From Bacillus sp. 103mf (GTDB lineage: Bacteria; Bacillota; Bacilli; Bacillales; Bacillaceae_G): DNA of 64,000 bases. Below the pieces are notes generated by a model, which saw only the letters and a list, made by a program, of their open reading frames with translations, searched no databases and was not told the origin of the DNA. The first letter of the stretch is position 1. Each line of letters starts with the position of its first letter. This document shows positions 8,203 through 61,376 of this stretch, in pieces. The position numbers and the translations under genes were made by a program. The DNA lies in contig NZ_FPAF01000001.1 in assembly GCF_900116295.1 (NCBI RefSeq), positions 372,001 to 436,000 of the forward strand. The letters run 5' to 3'.

Positions 8203-8430
8203 AAAAAACTTTGCACCTTACATTTCTCATATGTTGAAAAAGTTAGGAACAAAGTTGCTATACACCTTGTATTGACACTTTTTCCTCATAGTCTAGCAAA
8301 TTTATGGTTGCTAGGTAGAAACTTATGGACCTTATTACCAAGATTATATGAGGGATATTTTGATTTCGAAGTAATCGTACCACTTGATATGATTACTGTC
8401 AATACAATCCAAGAAAAAATCGAACGTTGA
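8203..8430 (+). pseudogene. Gene-like open frame on the plus strand without a start codon
   Basis: A 75-codon open frame, bounded by a TAA at 8200 and a TGA at 8428, has no ATG or ribosome-binding site near its beginning. Its last 50 codons read like a real protein terminus (for example FPHSLANLWLLGRNLWTLLP, then charged EKIER at the end). It is the only gene-like frame on this strand in the window. I do not recognise the family. It may be the 3' remnant of a gene lost between spoIIIE and ymfC, or a chance frame. Confidence 0.3.
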
Positions 8431-12100: not shown

Positions 12101-12166
12101 ATCGTAACCCCTTTCTCACGTATACAACTATTATTTGTTAAGTTATAAATTTCATTCGAAAGAGGA

Positions 12167-12428
12167 TAAAGTGAAACTTCCATCAGTGTTTTTTTCATCC
12201 CCCACTGATGGTTAACCCGTCCAACCTGGCACATGCCAGCAGTTATCCCCTACCTATCTTCTTTAGAAAAGCAGAAGTGGCTCGCTCAGAATGTGAGGGG
12301 GATGGAGCTTCTGACATAGAGGTGTTTTTTACCTCGTAGGAAGAAGCGAAGCCACCGAACATTCTAGCCACTGGAGCTGGATCTTAATCTTAAGATGGAG
12401 GTCTTACTGCCTGCGAATAGCGGGATAA
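12167..12428 (+). repeat. Composite structured repeat (family A joined to family B)
   Basis: Fills the tepA-rnjB gap. The A part (12167-12263) starts TAAAGTGAAACTTC and makes a 9-bp hairpin CCATCAGTG (12180-12188) with CACTGATGG (12203-12211), then the stem CTGGCA/TGCCAG. The B part (12264-12386) carries AGTGGCT/AGCCACT (12276, 12366), AGAATGT/ACATTCT (12288, 12359) and GAGGT/ACCTC (12319, 12331). A tail (about 12391-12428) resembles the tails at 15020 and 20740. It resembles bcr-type repeats of the B. cereus group; I cannot give a family number. Confidence 0.8.
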
Positions 12429-12429
12429 A

Positions 12430-12458
12430 AGAAAAAGCTACCTATAAATAGGTAGCCA
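12430..12458 (-). terminator. Intrinsic terminator after rnjB
   Basis: GCTACCTA (12437-12444) pairs with TAGGTAGC (12449-12456) around a 4-base loop, followed on the minus strand by TTTTTCTTTT. It lies between the rnjB stop and the composite repeat. Confidence 0.9.
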
Positions 12459-14411: not shown

Positions 14412-14529
14412 GTTAAATTATAAGAAAGAAAAGAGAAGAATATGTATAAGATGATAAACTGGATTTATTTCACTACTACATGCAAGAAGCAAAGTGAAAC
14501 ATCTAGCAGTAGGAATTTTCTTTATTCAT

Positions 14530-14700
14530 CACCTATATATACAAGTGAAAAAACGACATAAAACCCCCTTTCCTTTTAGGGGGGACGAGAGCATCTGGCC
14601 GTGCATAAAAGCGGTCAGGTCCATTTCCTGCCACATGCGAGGTTTAAAACAAAAGGAGCAAGGAGTACAGGTCATGTTGTATTCTGCATAGCAGCAACTT
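14530..14700 (+). repeat. Family C structured repeat, copy 1
   Basis: A hairpin CCCCC/GGGGG (14564, 14580) is followed by CTGGCCG/CGGTCAG (14595-14601 and 14612-14618, one G-U pair) and a longer stem CTGC..ATGC (14628-14638) with GCAT.GCAG (14686-14694). The same order is found in five other copies in the window. It lies opposite to the direction of the flanking genes. Confidence 0.75.
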
Positions 14701-14960
14701 ATAAAGAAAAGCGGAAGCGGCTCGCTCAGAACAAGAGGGGGATGGAGCTTCTGACATAGAGGCGCTTTTTGCCTCGGCGGAAGACGCGAAGCCACCGACT
14801 GTTCTAGCCGCTGGAGCTGGATCATAAAGAAAAGCGGAAGCGGCTCGCTCAGAACAAGAGGGGGGTGGAGCTTCTGACATAGAGGCGCTTTTTGCCTCGG
14901 CGGAAGACGCGAAGCCACCGACTGTTCTAGCCGCTGGAGCTAGATCATAAAGAAAAGCGG
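14701..14960 (+). repeat. Family B structured repeat, two tandem 123-bp units plus a partial third
   Basis: Units start at 14701, 14824 and 14947, an exact 123-base period; the third diverges after about 15 bases. Each unit folds as nested stems: AGCGGCT/AGCCGCT, AGAACA/TGTTCT, CTTC/GAAG extended by TGG/CCA across a 2-base bulge, and GAGGC/GCCTC closed by a T-rich loop. A tail to about 15035 (TTGAGGTGGGAG, then TATTACT) matches the tails of the elements at 12391 and 20736. The 951-base rnjB-dapA gap is mostly repeat DNA. Confidence 0.85.
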
Positions 14961-15042
14961 AGACGACTATTTAGACATGAGGGGCTAGGAGGCGAAGCTG
15001 GACAATGCTTTATCGAATTTTGAGGTGGGAGTATTACTAAAC

Positions 15043-15080
15043 ACAAAAAAGCGGCTTAGCACATATCACTAAGCCACTTT
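15043..15080 (-). terminator. Intrinsic terminator after dapA
   Basis: AAGCGGCTTAG (15049-15059) pairs with CTAAGCCACTT (15069-15079), 11 bp with one G-U pair, followed on the minus strand by a run of T. It ends the asd-dapG-dapA transcript. Confidence 0.92.
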
Positions 15081-15084
15081 CGTA

Positions 15085-20414: not shown

Positions 20415-20570
20415 CCATATATAAGTAAAAAAATGATATAAGAACCTCTTTTCTTTTTAAGAGAGCATCTGGCCGTGCATAGAAACGGTCATCCTACCAC
20501 ATGCAAGGTTTACAACAAAAAGAGAAAGCAAGCGCAGATCATATTGTATTCTGCATAGCAGCAACTTTTA
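20415..20570 (+). repeat. Family C structured repeat, copy 2
   Basis: It has the family C order: variable hairpin CTCTT/AAGAG (20446, 20459), the segment CTGGCCGTGCATAGAAACGG, the CCACATGC arm and CTGCATAGCAG near 20551. The first stem is weakened (AACGGTCA) and the second has a mismatch. It fills the first half of the 487-base ymxH-mlpA gap. Confidence 0.7.
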
Positions 20571-20604
20571 TGCTGAAACAATTAAATGAATAGATATACA
20601 AATA

Positions 20605-20775
20605 TAAAGTGAAACTTCCATCAGTGGGGGTTTTTCTTCATCCCCCACTGATGGAAAGCCTGCCCAATCGGGCGCATACCAGCAGTTATCTCCCACCTAT
20701 CTTCTTTAGAAAAGCGGAAGCGGCTTGCTCAGGATCTTGAGGTGGGAGTCTTACTACCCTAAAGTAGCGGGACAA
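20605..20775 (+). repeat. Family A repeat with truncated B part
   Basis: It opens with ATAAAGTGAAACTTC and a perfect 13-bp hairpin CCATCAGTGGGGG (20618-20630) with CCCCCACTGATGG (20642-20654). GCCCAATCGGGC then makes a second small hairpin, and CTCCCACCT (20690-20698) pairs with AGGTGGGAG (20740-20748). Between those last two arms only the first 25 or so bases of a B unit remain. It is followed directly by the mlpA terminator. Confidence 0.78.
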
Positions 20776-20778
20776 ATT

Positions 20779-20814
20779 AAAACACCGTTTCTCCTTAATA
20801 AGAAACGGTGTTTT
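20779..20814. terminator. Bidirectional terminator after mlpA
   Basis: AAAACACCGTTTCT (20779-20792) pairs with AGAAACGGTGTTTT (20801-20814), a 14-bp stem with T-runs on both strands. It ends mlpA and would also stop transcription coming from the repeat on the plus strand. Confidence 0.93.
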
Positions 20815-20822
20815 TTACTTGT

Positions 20823-22067
20823 TTATTTTTGACTTATCCCTTTTGGAAGTTCTCCATTTGGACTAATCAGCGCTGCAGAAAACTCATCTGTGAACATGTT
20901 ACGAATTAATGTATCTACATCTGTTTTTGTAACATTGTTTACACTTTCAATAATTTCATCTAAAGAACGGTGTTTTTTTAGAAGTAATTCATTTTTACCA
21001 TTACGGCTCATCCGACTATTTGTACTTTCTAAACTTAACATAAGATTGCCTTTTAGTTGCTCTTTACTGTTAAGTAATTCTTTTTCTGTGATACCTGTAT
21101 CTTTTAATGTATCAAGTGTTTGTTGAATTGTTTCGTACAACATATCGAGTTGCTGACTGCCCGTTCCCCCGTAAATTGTTAACATACCTGTATCTTCATA
21201 AGAAGAATGATAAGAAAATACAGAATACGCTAACCCGCGCTGCTCACGCACTTCTTGGAACAAACGACTACTCATACTACCGCCTAGAATATTATTCAAT
21301 ACAATTAGATTATAGATACTTTCATCGCCCATCTGTAATCCTTTAAATCCTAAACATAAATGGGCTTGCTCTGTTTCTTTTTTGCGTGCTACTTTATTTG
21401 GATGAAAACTAGGGTTATGTACTTGTTCGCGATTTGTCGTTCCTTCATAATTCCCAAAATATTGTTCGACGATTTGAACAAAGGATTCATCAATGTTACC
21501 AGCAATAGAAACAACGACATTTTCTGGCGTATAATGATCTTTCATATACTCACGAAGCATATCGCCTGTAAACGTTTCAAGCGTTTGCTCTGTTCCTAAA
21601 ATAGGATATGCCAGCGGGTGCGTCTCATACGTGGCTTTCGTTAACATATCATGGACAATATCATCTGGCGTATCTTCATACATTTTAATTTCTTCAAACA
21701 CAACATTTTTTTCTTTTTTCAATTCTTCTTCAACAAACGTTGAATTAAAGAACATGTCCGTCAAAATATCAAGTGCGTATTTTGCATGTTCATCTAACAC
21801 TTTTGCATAATAACACGTATATTCCTTTGATGTAAACGCATTAACTTGCCCGCCAATGCTATCGAAGGACTCTGCAATTTCTCTAGCACTACGTGTTTTC
21901 GTCCCCTTAAAAAACATGTGTTCTAAAAAATGAGAAACCCCATTATTCGTTTCATTTTCATTTCGTGATCCCGCATGAATCCATACTCCAATTGCAACAG
22001 AACGTACTGTTGGAATATGCTCCATTACGATTCTTACTCCATTTTTACATGTATATTTTTTGATCAA
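20823..22067 (-). CDS. mlpA: M16 zinc protease MlpA (YmxG)
   Basis: A processing-peptidase-like zinc protease with the motif HFLEH (about residues 48-52) and the downstream glutamate region VVFEEIKMYED. The start is a TTG at 22067 (reads LIKKYTCKNGVRIV) because AGGAGG lies exactly upstream; the longer frame starts at another TTG without such a site. This gives 414 residues, close to B. subtilis MlpA (409). MlpA homologues have been linked to protease regulation and turnover of processing fragments. It is transcribed after ylxY with a short gap and ends at a strong terminator. Confidence 0.92.
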   Translation of the reverse strand: MIKKYTCKNGVRIVMEHIPTVRSVAIGVWIHAGSRNENETNNGVSHFLEHMFFKGTKTRSAREIAESFDSIGGQVNAFTSKEYTCYYAKVLDEHAKYALDILTDMFFNSTFVEEELKKEKNVVFEEIKMYEDTPDDIVHDMLTKATYETHPLAYPILGTEQTLETFTGDMLREYMKDHYTPENVVVSIAGNIDESFVQIVEQYFGNYEGTTNREQVHNPSFHPNKVARKKETEQAHLCLGFKGLQMGDESIYNLIVLNNILGGSMSSRLFQEVREQRGLAYSVFSYHSSYEDTGMLTIYGGTGSQQLDMLYETIQQTLDTLKDTGITEKELLNSKEQLKGNLMLSLESTNSRMSRNGKNELLLKKHRSLDEIIESVNNVTKTDVDTLIRNMFTDEFSAALISPNGELPKGISQK

Positions 22068-22155
22068 AAGCCTTCCTCCTATTGACAAATTCTCTGTAAA
22101 AAGATTCTATTATATAATCATAACAAGTTTAAGGGCGAATGTCATGCAAATGTGT

Positions 22156-23307: not shown

Positions 23308-23314
23308 CTTTTGC

Positions 23315-25468
23315 TTATTCTTGTTCTTGCTTTGCAGCTTCTTTTTCTTGCTCTTGCTTTGCAGCTTCTTTTTCCTGCTCTTCTTTAAGCAATACTTTTC
23401 GAGATAAGTTTACACGACCTTGTTTATCGATTTCGATAACTTTTACTGAAATCTCATCACCGATTTTCACAACATCTTCTACTTTCCCTACACGTTCAAG
23501 TGCTAATTCAGAAATATGAACAAGACCGTCTTTACCACTGAATAATTCAACGAAAGCACCAAATTTTTCAATTCGTTTTACTTTCCCTAAATAAATTTCA
23601 CCTACTTGCACTTCACGAACGATATCTTCGATAATTTTCTTCGCTTTTTCGTTCATCTCTTGATCAATAGATGAAATAAAGACTGTACCATCTTGTTCAA
23701 TATCAATTTTCACGCCTGTTTCTTCAATAATCTTGTTAATTTGCTTTCCACTTGGTCCAATAACATCACGGATTTTGTCCGGATTAATTGTCATTGTCAC
23801 AATCTTAGGAGCATATTGAGATAACTCCGTACGTGGCTCAGCAATAACAGATAACATATGATCTAAAATGTGCATACGTCCAACTTTTGCTTGTTGCAAT
23901 GCTTCTTCTAAAATTTCACGTGATAACCCTTCAATTTTAATATCCATTTGAAGTGCCGTTACACCTTGAGCTGTACCAGCTACTTTAAAGTCCATATCAC
24001 CTAAGTGATCTTCCATACCTTGGATATCCGTTAAAATTGTGTAGTGCTCACCAGACTTCACAAGTCCCATTGCAATACCAGCAACTGGAGCTTTAAGCGG
24101 AACACCTGCATCCATCATCGCTAAAGTGCTACCGCAAATACTTGCTTGAGAAGTAGAACCATTTGATTCTAATACTTCTGATACAAGACGAACTGTATAT
24201 GGGAAATCTTTTTCAGATGGAATAACAGGTTCAAGAGCACGTTCACCTAACGCACCGTGCCCAATTTCACGACGACCTGGTCCACGCATTGGTCTTGTTT
24301 CACCAACACTAAAGGATGGGAAATTATAATGATGCATGAAGCGTTTGGACTCTTCTACACCAAGACCATCTAAAATTTGCACATCGCCTAATGCTCCTAA
24401 TGTACAAATACTTAATGCCTGTGTTTGTCCACGTGTAAACAAACCAGAACCATGCGTACGAGATAAAATCCCTACTTCTGATGCTAGAGGACGAATTTCA
24501 TCACCTTTACGACCATCTGGGCGGATTTTTTCAACTGTAATAAGACGACGTACTTCTTCTTTTACAATTTTATATAAAATCTCATTTACTTGTCCTAATG
24601 TTTCAGCATCAGCTTCTTGCGCCTCATAATGCTGGATAACACGCTTTTTCACTGCATTAATTGCATCTTCACGCGCATGTTTTTCGTGCACTTGAATTGC
24701 TGAATGCATATCTTGCTCTGCCATTTCACGTACAACTTGATCAAGCTCAGCGTTCACTTCATATAACTGAACTTCCGTTTTTTCTTTTCCAACTGCTTGT
24801 ACAATTTCTTCTTGGAATGCAATCAAACGTTTAATTTCTTCATGGCCAAACATAATCGCTTCTAACATCGTTTCTTCAGGCACTTGATCTGCACCAGCTT
24901 CTACCATGTTAATCGCATCTTTTGTTCCAGCAACAACAAGGTGAATATCACTCTTCTCTTGTTGTTCAACTGTTGGATTCATAATAAATTCACCGTCAAT
25001 ACGACCAACTGTCGCACCAGCAATCGGGCCTTCAAATGGAATATCTGAAATCGATAATGCTAATGAAGAACCAAGCATAGCTGCCATTTCTGAAGAACAA
25101 TCTTGATCTACACTCATTACAATGCTGACAACTTGTACTTCATTACGGAAACCATCAGCAAAAAGAGGACGAATTGGACGATCGATTAAACGGCTCGCTA
25201 AAATCGCTTTCTCACTTGGACGACCTTCACGTTTAATAAAGCCGCCTGGAATTTTCCCTACTGCATATAAACGTTCTTCATAGTTTACTGTTAGTGGGAA
25301 GAAATCTACATTTTTTGCCTCTTTTGATGCAGTTGCTGTAGATAGAACTGCTGTGTCGCCATACCTTACTAATACTGCTCCGTTTGCTTGTTTTGCAAGC
25401 TGACCTGTTTCAATCGTTAGCTGACGACCAGCCAAATCTATCGAGAAGACTTGCTTTTCCTGACTCAT
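23315..25468 (-). CDS. pnp: Polyribonucleotide nucleotidyltransferase (PNPase)
   Basis: A 717-residue phosphorolytic 3'-5' exoribonuclease of the degradosome-like network. The order is two RNase PH domains (about 10-230 and 310-540), a KH domain ([20 protein letters not shown], about 560) and an S1 domain ([20 protein letters not shown], about 620). The C-terminus ends in a repeated charged tail, two copies of EKEAAKQEQ encoded by a 27-base direct repeat near 23318-23375. It follows rpsO, separated by a terminator, the usual pairing in bacteria. Confidence 0.96.
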
Positions 25469-46637: not shown

Positions 46638-46849
46638 GTCGAAAATACATACATTGTCAAACTTTCTTTTTCATTGCTCTTTTTTTCTATGAAATCATTA
46701 CTCACTCTTTATAACATTTCCATTTTTCATTCTGTTTACGCTAGTATTCCACTGAAAAAAATAGTTTTATGTCGATTTTTTAATTGGGATTTATGTATGA
46801 ATCCCTTTTGATTTTTCAACATAGAGATTACTGTTATGAAAAAAGAACC

Positions 46850-46990
46850 TGCACTCGCTTACTCTCTCTGGTTTTCACTGCGCATGTGGCAGAAAAAGGC
46901 CCTGACCGCTTCTATGCACGGTCAGTTCCTCTCTCCTCCCCCTAAAAAAGGATTTTATATCCGTTTTTCAGCTTGTATTTATATATGCTA
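46850..46990 (-). repeat. Family C structured repeat, copy 6 (inverted orientation)
   Basis: The only family C copy on the minus strand. Its first stem is perfect, CTGACCG/CGGTCAG (46903-46909 and 46920-46926), where other copies carry a G-U pair. The GGGCCTTTTTCTGCCACATGC stretch (given here as parts) and the C-rich upstream hairpin side (CCCCCTAAAAAAGG) are also present. It lies in the codY-rpsB gap. Confidence 0.72.
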
Positions 46991-54689: not shown

Positions 54690-55185
54690 GACATAAAACC
54701 CATTCTTTTTAGGCGGGCGAGAGCGTCTGGCCGTGCATAGGGGCGGTCAGGGCCTTTTTCTGCCACACGCAAGGTTGAAAACACAAGATAGATAGCGGGA
54801 GCGGGGTATGTTTTATTTTGCGTGGCAAGGATATATAGATAACTTTAAAAATATTAGTTGAAAAAGAAAGAAAATCCTCTTTCTTTTTCAACAGGTACAA
54901 GAGCATCTGGCCATGCATAGAAGCGGTCAGGGCCTTTTTCTGCCACACGCAAGGTTGAAAACACAAGGTAGATAGCGGGAGCGGGGTATGTTTTATTTTG
55001 CGTGGCAAGGATATATAGATAACTTTAGAAATTTAAGTTGAGAAAACGAAGGAAAACCCTCTGCGGCACAAGAGCATCTGGCCATGCATAGAAGCGGTCA
55101 GGGCCTTTTTCTGCCACACGCAAAGTGCAAACAAAGGGAGAAAGCGAGTGCATACTCCTTTTTTCTGCATAGCAGTAATCTATAT
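54690..55185 (+). repeat. Family C structured repeat, three tandem copies
   Basis: Units share the core AGAGC(A/G)TCTGGCC at 54721, 54901 and 55072, giving spacings of 180 and 171 bases. Each has a variable upstream hairpin (15-bp GTTGAAAAAGAAAGA/TCTTTCTTTTTCAAC in the middle unit, 54858-54872 and 54879-54893), the CTGGCC...CGGTCAG stem and, in the first two, TGCC..ACGC paired with GCGTGGCA (54762, 54821). They lie opposite to dprA and topA. The stretch 54464-54690 is AT-rich and otherwise empty. Confidence 0.82.
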
Positions 55186-61289: not shown

Positions 61290-61376
61290 CTCCTTCCAAA
61301 CAGATGCTCATACAAAGTCATTTCATAAATTGCAGCGGAACACCGTTGTTAACGGCTACCCTCTATAAGTAGCACA
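61290..61376 (-). promoter_or_regulatory. L19 leader (autoregulatory RNA)
   Basis: On the mRNA the leader contains GCTAC/GTAGC and CCGTT/AACGG hairpins, followed by AAATGACTTTGTATGAGCATC just before the ribosome-binding site. Its position and the presence of two short hairpins fit the L19 leader family known in Bacillota. The fit is by position and shape, not by a covariance search. Confidence 0.6.

Follow-up and report, generated by a model that had tools for sequence, protein, structure and literature searches.

Tandem 123-bp hairpin units in Bacillus sp. 103mf as probable copies of a MITE-like element often lying on the left side of terminator-like hairpins

Several families of small interspersed repeats offer themselves for comparison with the locus described here. 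The BCR repeats are 100-400 bp long and reported to be specific to the Bacillus cereus group, some with mobile-element features tied to the motif TTTAT (PMC6542083); 40.0% and 50.9% of the bcr copies lie within mRNAs of two B. cereus strains, and genes co-transcribed with bcr3 have longer mRNA half-lives (PMC3446304). BOX, RUP and SPRITE of Streptococcus pneumoniae are small interspersed repeats, extensively structured and probably parasitic, that at present insert slowly (PMC3049150). BrickBuilt of Porphyromonas gingivalis is a MITE in which a tandem array accompanies a leader, a tail and small inverted repeats at the ends (PMC4596501), and a survey of stem-loop repeats lists two intergenic families, Bant-1, 72 bp long with 104 copies in B. 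anthracis, and Bhal-1, 74 bp long with 36 copies in B. halodurans (PMC2267715).

The array of 123-bp hairpin units in Bacillus sp. 103mf resembles bcr1-bcr18 in that each of its units is preceded by ATAAA, the complement of the mobility motif TTTAT. Unlike those repeats, and comparing by description rather than by consensus, units of this type are also found in Ectobacillus antri, and further genera carry the left end. With BOX, RUP and SPRITE it has in common that these are small interspersed structured repeats; here, in contrast, tandem repetition involves the complete hairpin unit, the ends are different, and most of the terminator-like hairpins lie on one side. BOX elements contain a variable number of inner modules. 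BrickBuilt has a 23-nt repeat as opposed to the hairpin unit of 118-123 nt found here, and P. gingivalis belongs to a different phylum from the host of our array. Bant-1 and Bhal-1, compared by description, are likewise intergenic stem-loop repeats but have shorter models.

Within the window, by which we mean the entire 64,000-nucleotide stretch of DNA that was analyzed, the tandem 123-base repeat reported in the initial annotation was recovered: TRF called a repeat at 14701-14961 with a period of 123, 2.1 copies, 98% matches and a score of 508. Unit 1 (14701..14823, + strand, GAAAAGCG from 14706 on) was delineated by TRF, BLAST and folding as a long imperfect hairpin, and unit 2 (14824..14946, +) is 98.4% identical to it according to TRF and BLAST. 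The first 15 bases of a third unit (about 14947..15004, +), which has lost its core and was recognized by eye from its left end GAAAAGCGGA... and right end AAGCTGGACA, are included in the TRF call. A single diverged copy at 12265..12387 (+) with compensatory changes is ~87% identical to unit 1 (87.4% by BLAST of 14701-14823 against 12265-12383), and BLAST also located a 25-bp left-end fragment of the unit at 20708..20732 (+); the core-deleted third unit and this fragment add to the copies listed initially. The three stem pairs that had been quoted as changing on both sides are all present in the sequence (AGCGGCT/AGCCGCT against AGTGGCT/AGCCACT, AGAACA/TGTTCT against AGAATGT/ACATTCT, and GAGGC/GCCTC against GAGGT/ACCTC). 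We regard the 123-bp units as likely copies of a MITE-like element, small, non-coding and non-autonomous, that is mobilised in trans and also multiplies in tandem. In keeping with a MITE, the element is short and non-coding (118-bp unit plus tail), and the 129-aa frame that overlaps it (14529-14918) matched no NCBIfam family.

Folding energy alone marks the 14701 unit as no more than moderately unusual, with z values of -1.94 (+) and -1.13 (-) as RNA and -1.37 as DNA (second unit -2.11 as DNA); the 12260 copy deviates more (RNA -3.75 and -2.94, DNA -3.50). No Rfam family reached its gathering score on the window units, and the sole overlap with a unit among 18 loci searched at E<=5 was mir-627 at L089, with 24.1 bits against a cut-off of 86. 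Elsewhere in the window, Rfam identified a purine riboswitch (8269-8371, -) and an L19 leader (61301-61346, -).

The window contains several other repeats. A second interspersed repeat (GAGCATCTGGCCGTGCATA...GCGGTCAGG) occurs at 14561-14703, 20461-20570, 54699-54787, 54872-54968, 55065-55184 and 46847-46947 (-); its copy at 14561-14703 ends just where the tandem array starts, and a relative of it adjoins a hairpin unit in locus L334. A larger element (ATAAAGTGAAACTTCCATCAGTG...GAGGTGGGAGTCTTACT) at 12166-12425 and 20603-20790 encloses the 12265 unit and the 20708 fragment, respectively, and may, we presume, be bcr1-like. A 27-bp tandem repeat (23314-23399) is located at the low-coordinate end of the - strand ORF 23315-25468.

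To examine the fold, 50 full-length units were picked (three from the window and 47 from genomes G001, G003 and G004) and aligned with MAFFT, and pairs were counted on the RNAalifold model plus four outer pairs added by hand. Pairing was retained in 95.5% of the cells. Both sides of a pair had changed in 213 cells, distributed over 20 of the 30 pairs, compared to a mean of 68.1 (sd 7.1) after shuffling, and none of 500 shuffles reached the observed value; slid-structure controls gave 14-42 such cells, a comparison in which the counted structure has an advantage because it came from the same family of units. The sequence-only alignment of 115 distinct full-length units likewise gave a long hairpin, in which columns 27-97 were occupied by GC in 49, CG in 42 and AU in 12 units. 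The check proposed initially, i.e. collecting copies and testing them for covariation, was thus carried out by these counts in place of R-scape and came out in favor of the fold: with double changes far above both the shuffles and the slid controls, the fold has been under constraint in this hairpin family. Recombination among copies or between subfamilies may inflate the double-change counts. In four units (L174, L182, L183 and L201) a different element of ~119 bp (CCCGCTCTAAGCGTCC...CATCTTATG, one copy CCCACTCT...) sits at the same position of the apical loop, following TTTAT in three and TTTTT in one.

The position of the arrays relative to genes was analyzed in G001, G003 and G004, where 100 arrays were chained and 94 kept, the remaining six being dropped because they lay within 60 nt of a contig end or began elsewhere than at the left end. 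Although starts up to unit position 5 would have passed the filter, every array kept begins at position 1-3. By HMM, the last unit is full in 39 arrays and incomplete in 41, and the other 14 consist of one left-end fragment each. A terminator-like hairpin was found in the right flank of 50 arrays and in the left flank of six (sign test 1e-9), with 44 of the 94 having none on the right at the threshold used. Since G001 and G004 have many sites in common, the count for G003 alone matters most (right 27/48, left 3/48, p 8e-6), and 39 loci of three further genomes followed the same pattern (right 22, left 2). The gene to the left is co-oriented with the array in 46 cases, and in 30 of these the array starts no more than about 6 nt from the stop codon of that gene (14 of 25 in G003). 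In the window, all three sites have a terminator-like hairpin on the right, namely at 15047..15081 (-), at the end of dapA, for the array (terminator scoring and gene call), at 12436..12457 (-), at the end of an RNase J family gene, for the 12265 copy, and at 20779..20814 (+) for the 20708 fragment, whose right-hand gene (20823-22088) is on the - strand. The array also has a terminator-like hairpin on its left (14564-14583).

This arrangement lends some plausibility to an RNA role, in which the unit would be a cis-acting element of 3' UTRs, transcribed between stop codon and terminator, that stabilises or regulates the mRNA. The arrays that start close to a stop codon would fit such a role, as would the right-hand terminator-like hairpin in 28 of the 46 arrays with a co-oriented left gene, the mRNA location of bcr copies and the longer half-lives of bcr3 co-transcripts reported in the work cited above, and the better folding of the + strand in the window. 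The left gene, however, points away in 45 of the 94 arrays, which places these arrays outside the 3' UTR of that gene, and the units of the window read on the + strand while their neighbouring genes lie on the -. The number of full units furthermore varies from 0 to 5 at common sites, and orthologous sites without the element exist. The mismatches speak in the same direction. Raw cells without the apex pair contain more G-U (63) than A-C (41), an excess due mainly to columns 45-79 and 46-78, but when events were reconstructed by parsimony on a FastTree tree, again excluding the apex pair, the 124 one-sided events from Watson-Crick (WC) pairs comprised 41 to G-U, 34 to A-C and 49 other changes, and G-U and A-C were about symmetrical (p 0.49). 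Terminal branches carried 92 of these 124 events. One-sided mismatches therefore show no strand preference and do not indicate an RNA role, which we consider unlikely. The pattern of events is that expected for decaying copies of structured master elements and gives no clear sign of a functional RNA in each copy. Of the initially claimed selected RNA or DNA fold, the constraint on the fold accordingly stands, while a clear sign of functional RNA is missing. On balance, DNA-level structure with decay of the copies is more probable than a conserved transcript.

An origin of the double changes without selection, in which template switching in a quasi-palindrome at replication corrects one arm to match its partner in a single step, would account for the excess of double WC-to-WC events (115, with 74 on internal and 41 on terminal branches) over G-U-to-WC steps (8) and for the common G-C/C-G swaps, which G-U intermediates cannot yield, yet we judge it improbable given that the 124 one-sided mismatch events persist, that recombination between subfamilies may itself raise the double-change count, and that inner stem pairs covary across divergent subfamilies as well (30 units, their outer bases being preset by the search pattern).

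Returning to the MITE-like element, the evidence for its mobility comes from relatives and not from the window copies. In G056, G131, G142, G038 and G003, complete elements extend on the right into a tail that finishes with TTTATACTTTCTTA, the inverted left end TAAGAAAAG; the terminal pair TAAGAAAAG and CTTTCTTA is present in these five genomes, and its right end was not recognised in the window. In G003, the tail was matched with <=4 mismatches to the right of 20 and to the left of 3 of the 48 arrays; it is weak in G001 and G004 (7/46 arrays). The exact 15-mer of the tail followed the right end of the unit in 19 of the 30 loci read out of 35 hits. Short elements with other cores have the right end TTTATACTTTCTTAT in common (L307, L313 and L318 in G142; L311, L317, L326 and L334 in G003; L306 in G018).

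For G131, 12 sites were fetched and seven of them queried in five genomes, of which G102, G208 and G158 matched. At all seven, at least one of these three genomes was without an intact unit, so that insertion polymorphism at orthologous sites, a hallmark by which MITEs are recognized, is seen in relatives. By eye, both unit and tail were absent at five sites (L263, L265, L266, L267 and L268), L269 had a unit in G102 and none in G158, and L262 was diverged. Candidate target-site duplications, also judged by eye, were 8 bp at L267, possibly present in imperfect form at L263 and about 0-3 bp elsewhere.

The fixed left end and variable right truncation had at first been read as rolling-circle or target-primed copying. 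This reading, for which loci had been chosen by the left-end pattern (the left-end places of G003 having been listed in part, and part of those fetched), is weakened because complete elements have a right tail and several of the apparent truncations in G003 are core deletions that keep the right end. A search with the right-end pattern in G001 and G004 (59 places; reversed control 5) revealed no left-truncated unit away from contig ends, and among the right-end places outside existing loci that were fetched, five (L227-L230 and L236) were without a unit. As mobiliser, neither the group II RT (18/41 repeat-bearing and 74/158 other genomes) nor the Y1 (RAYT-like) transposase (32/41 and 121/158) was associated with repeat-bearing genomes in a hand tally, and both were rejected; the repeat-bearing G004 and G102 have no Y1 transposase at E<=1e-8. 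The same Y1 counts argue against membership in the REP/RAYT systems.

Change in copy number was followed at sites common to G001 (26 arrays compared) and G004 (24). The two genomes have 20 sites in common, which indicates little recent transposition there. Away from contig ends, the number of full units was unequal at 10 of 18 common sites (range 0 to 5), and at five of these 10 one genome had a left-end fragment only and zero full units. Units within an array were as similar to each other as units at the same site were between the two species (identity 0.90 for both), and homogenisation is therefore not shown.

Ectobacillus antri has 20 matches to the unit, and in its family 7 of 19 genomes, E. 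antri included, had matches and neighbouring left ends were spaced mostly 120-127 bp apart. With a looser pattern, in which only the two ends and some of the outer stem were fixed, 41 of 199 genomes sampled evenly from the order matched, compared to 0 for the reversed pattern. The left end was found in 23 of 50 genomes reached via named loci (control 0); by locus title, carriers besides Ectobacillus were Cytobacillus, Neobacillus, Lederbergia, Alteribacillus and Sporosarcina globispora as well as Bacillus sp., a Bacillaceae bacterium and one Paenibacillus sp. (BSR1-1), and among those 50 it was absent from other Paenibacillus and from the Geobacillus, Anoxybacillus and Brevibacillus genomes. 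Phage and plasmid records contained no unit match at E 1e-5. Among the matches listed (80 loci), the best named relative of the RNase J gene was that of E. antri (82%).

The confinement to the B. cereus group that marks the bcr repeats thus does not apply to these units. If they are a bcr family, that family extends beyond the group; otherwise they are unnamed as far as the literature searched shows. A search by sequence string or family name retrieved no prior description outside the bcr literature, a weak negative as subscription papers were mostly beyond reach. We would therefore file the units under the MITE/BOX kind rather than as BCR members.

We envisage the element as an imperfect hairpin of about 118 bp with the fixed left end (TA)AGAAAAGCG, which complete copies would extend on the right by a tail of about 27-35 bp that terminates in TTTATACTTTCTTA. 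A trans-acting enzyme would read the ends and the hairpin as DNA, and as other small elements with unlike cores have the same right end, it may serve all of them. Arrays such as that in the window would gain and lose units when their direct repeats recombine or slip against each other. Active masters would depend on the hairpin for their movement and so keep it conserved, with single copies decaying afterwards. More tentatively, one candidate recombinase, supplied in trans, might move an entire group of small hairpin elements that differ in their cores but have common ends, across Bacillus-like genera; it would act on single-stranded DNA hairpins and insert them with a uniform orientation next to intrinsic terminators, frequently in the gap that separates the stop codon from the terminator, and tandem multiplication would follow. 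The terminator-ward orientation makes the targeting mechanism directly testable.

A covarying hairpin for which no Rfam entry was found is present in about a fifth of the sampled genomes of the order. Strong covariation may mark a mobile DNA hairpin, and such elements can mislead searches for structured RNAs; the balance of G-U and A-C mismatches provides a simple test that separates a DNA hairpin from a structured RNA.
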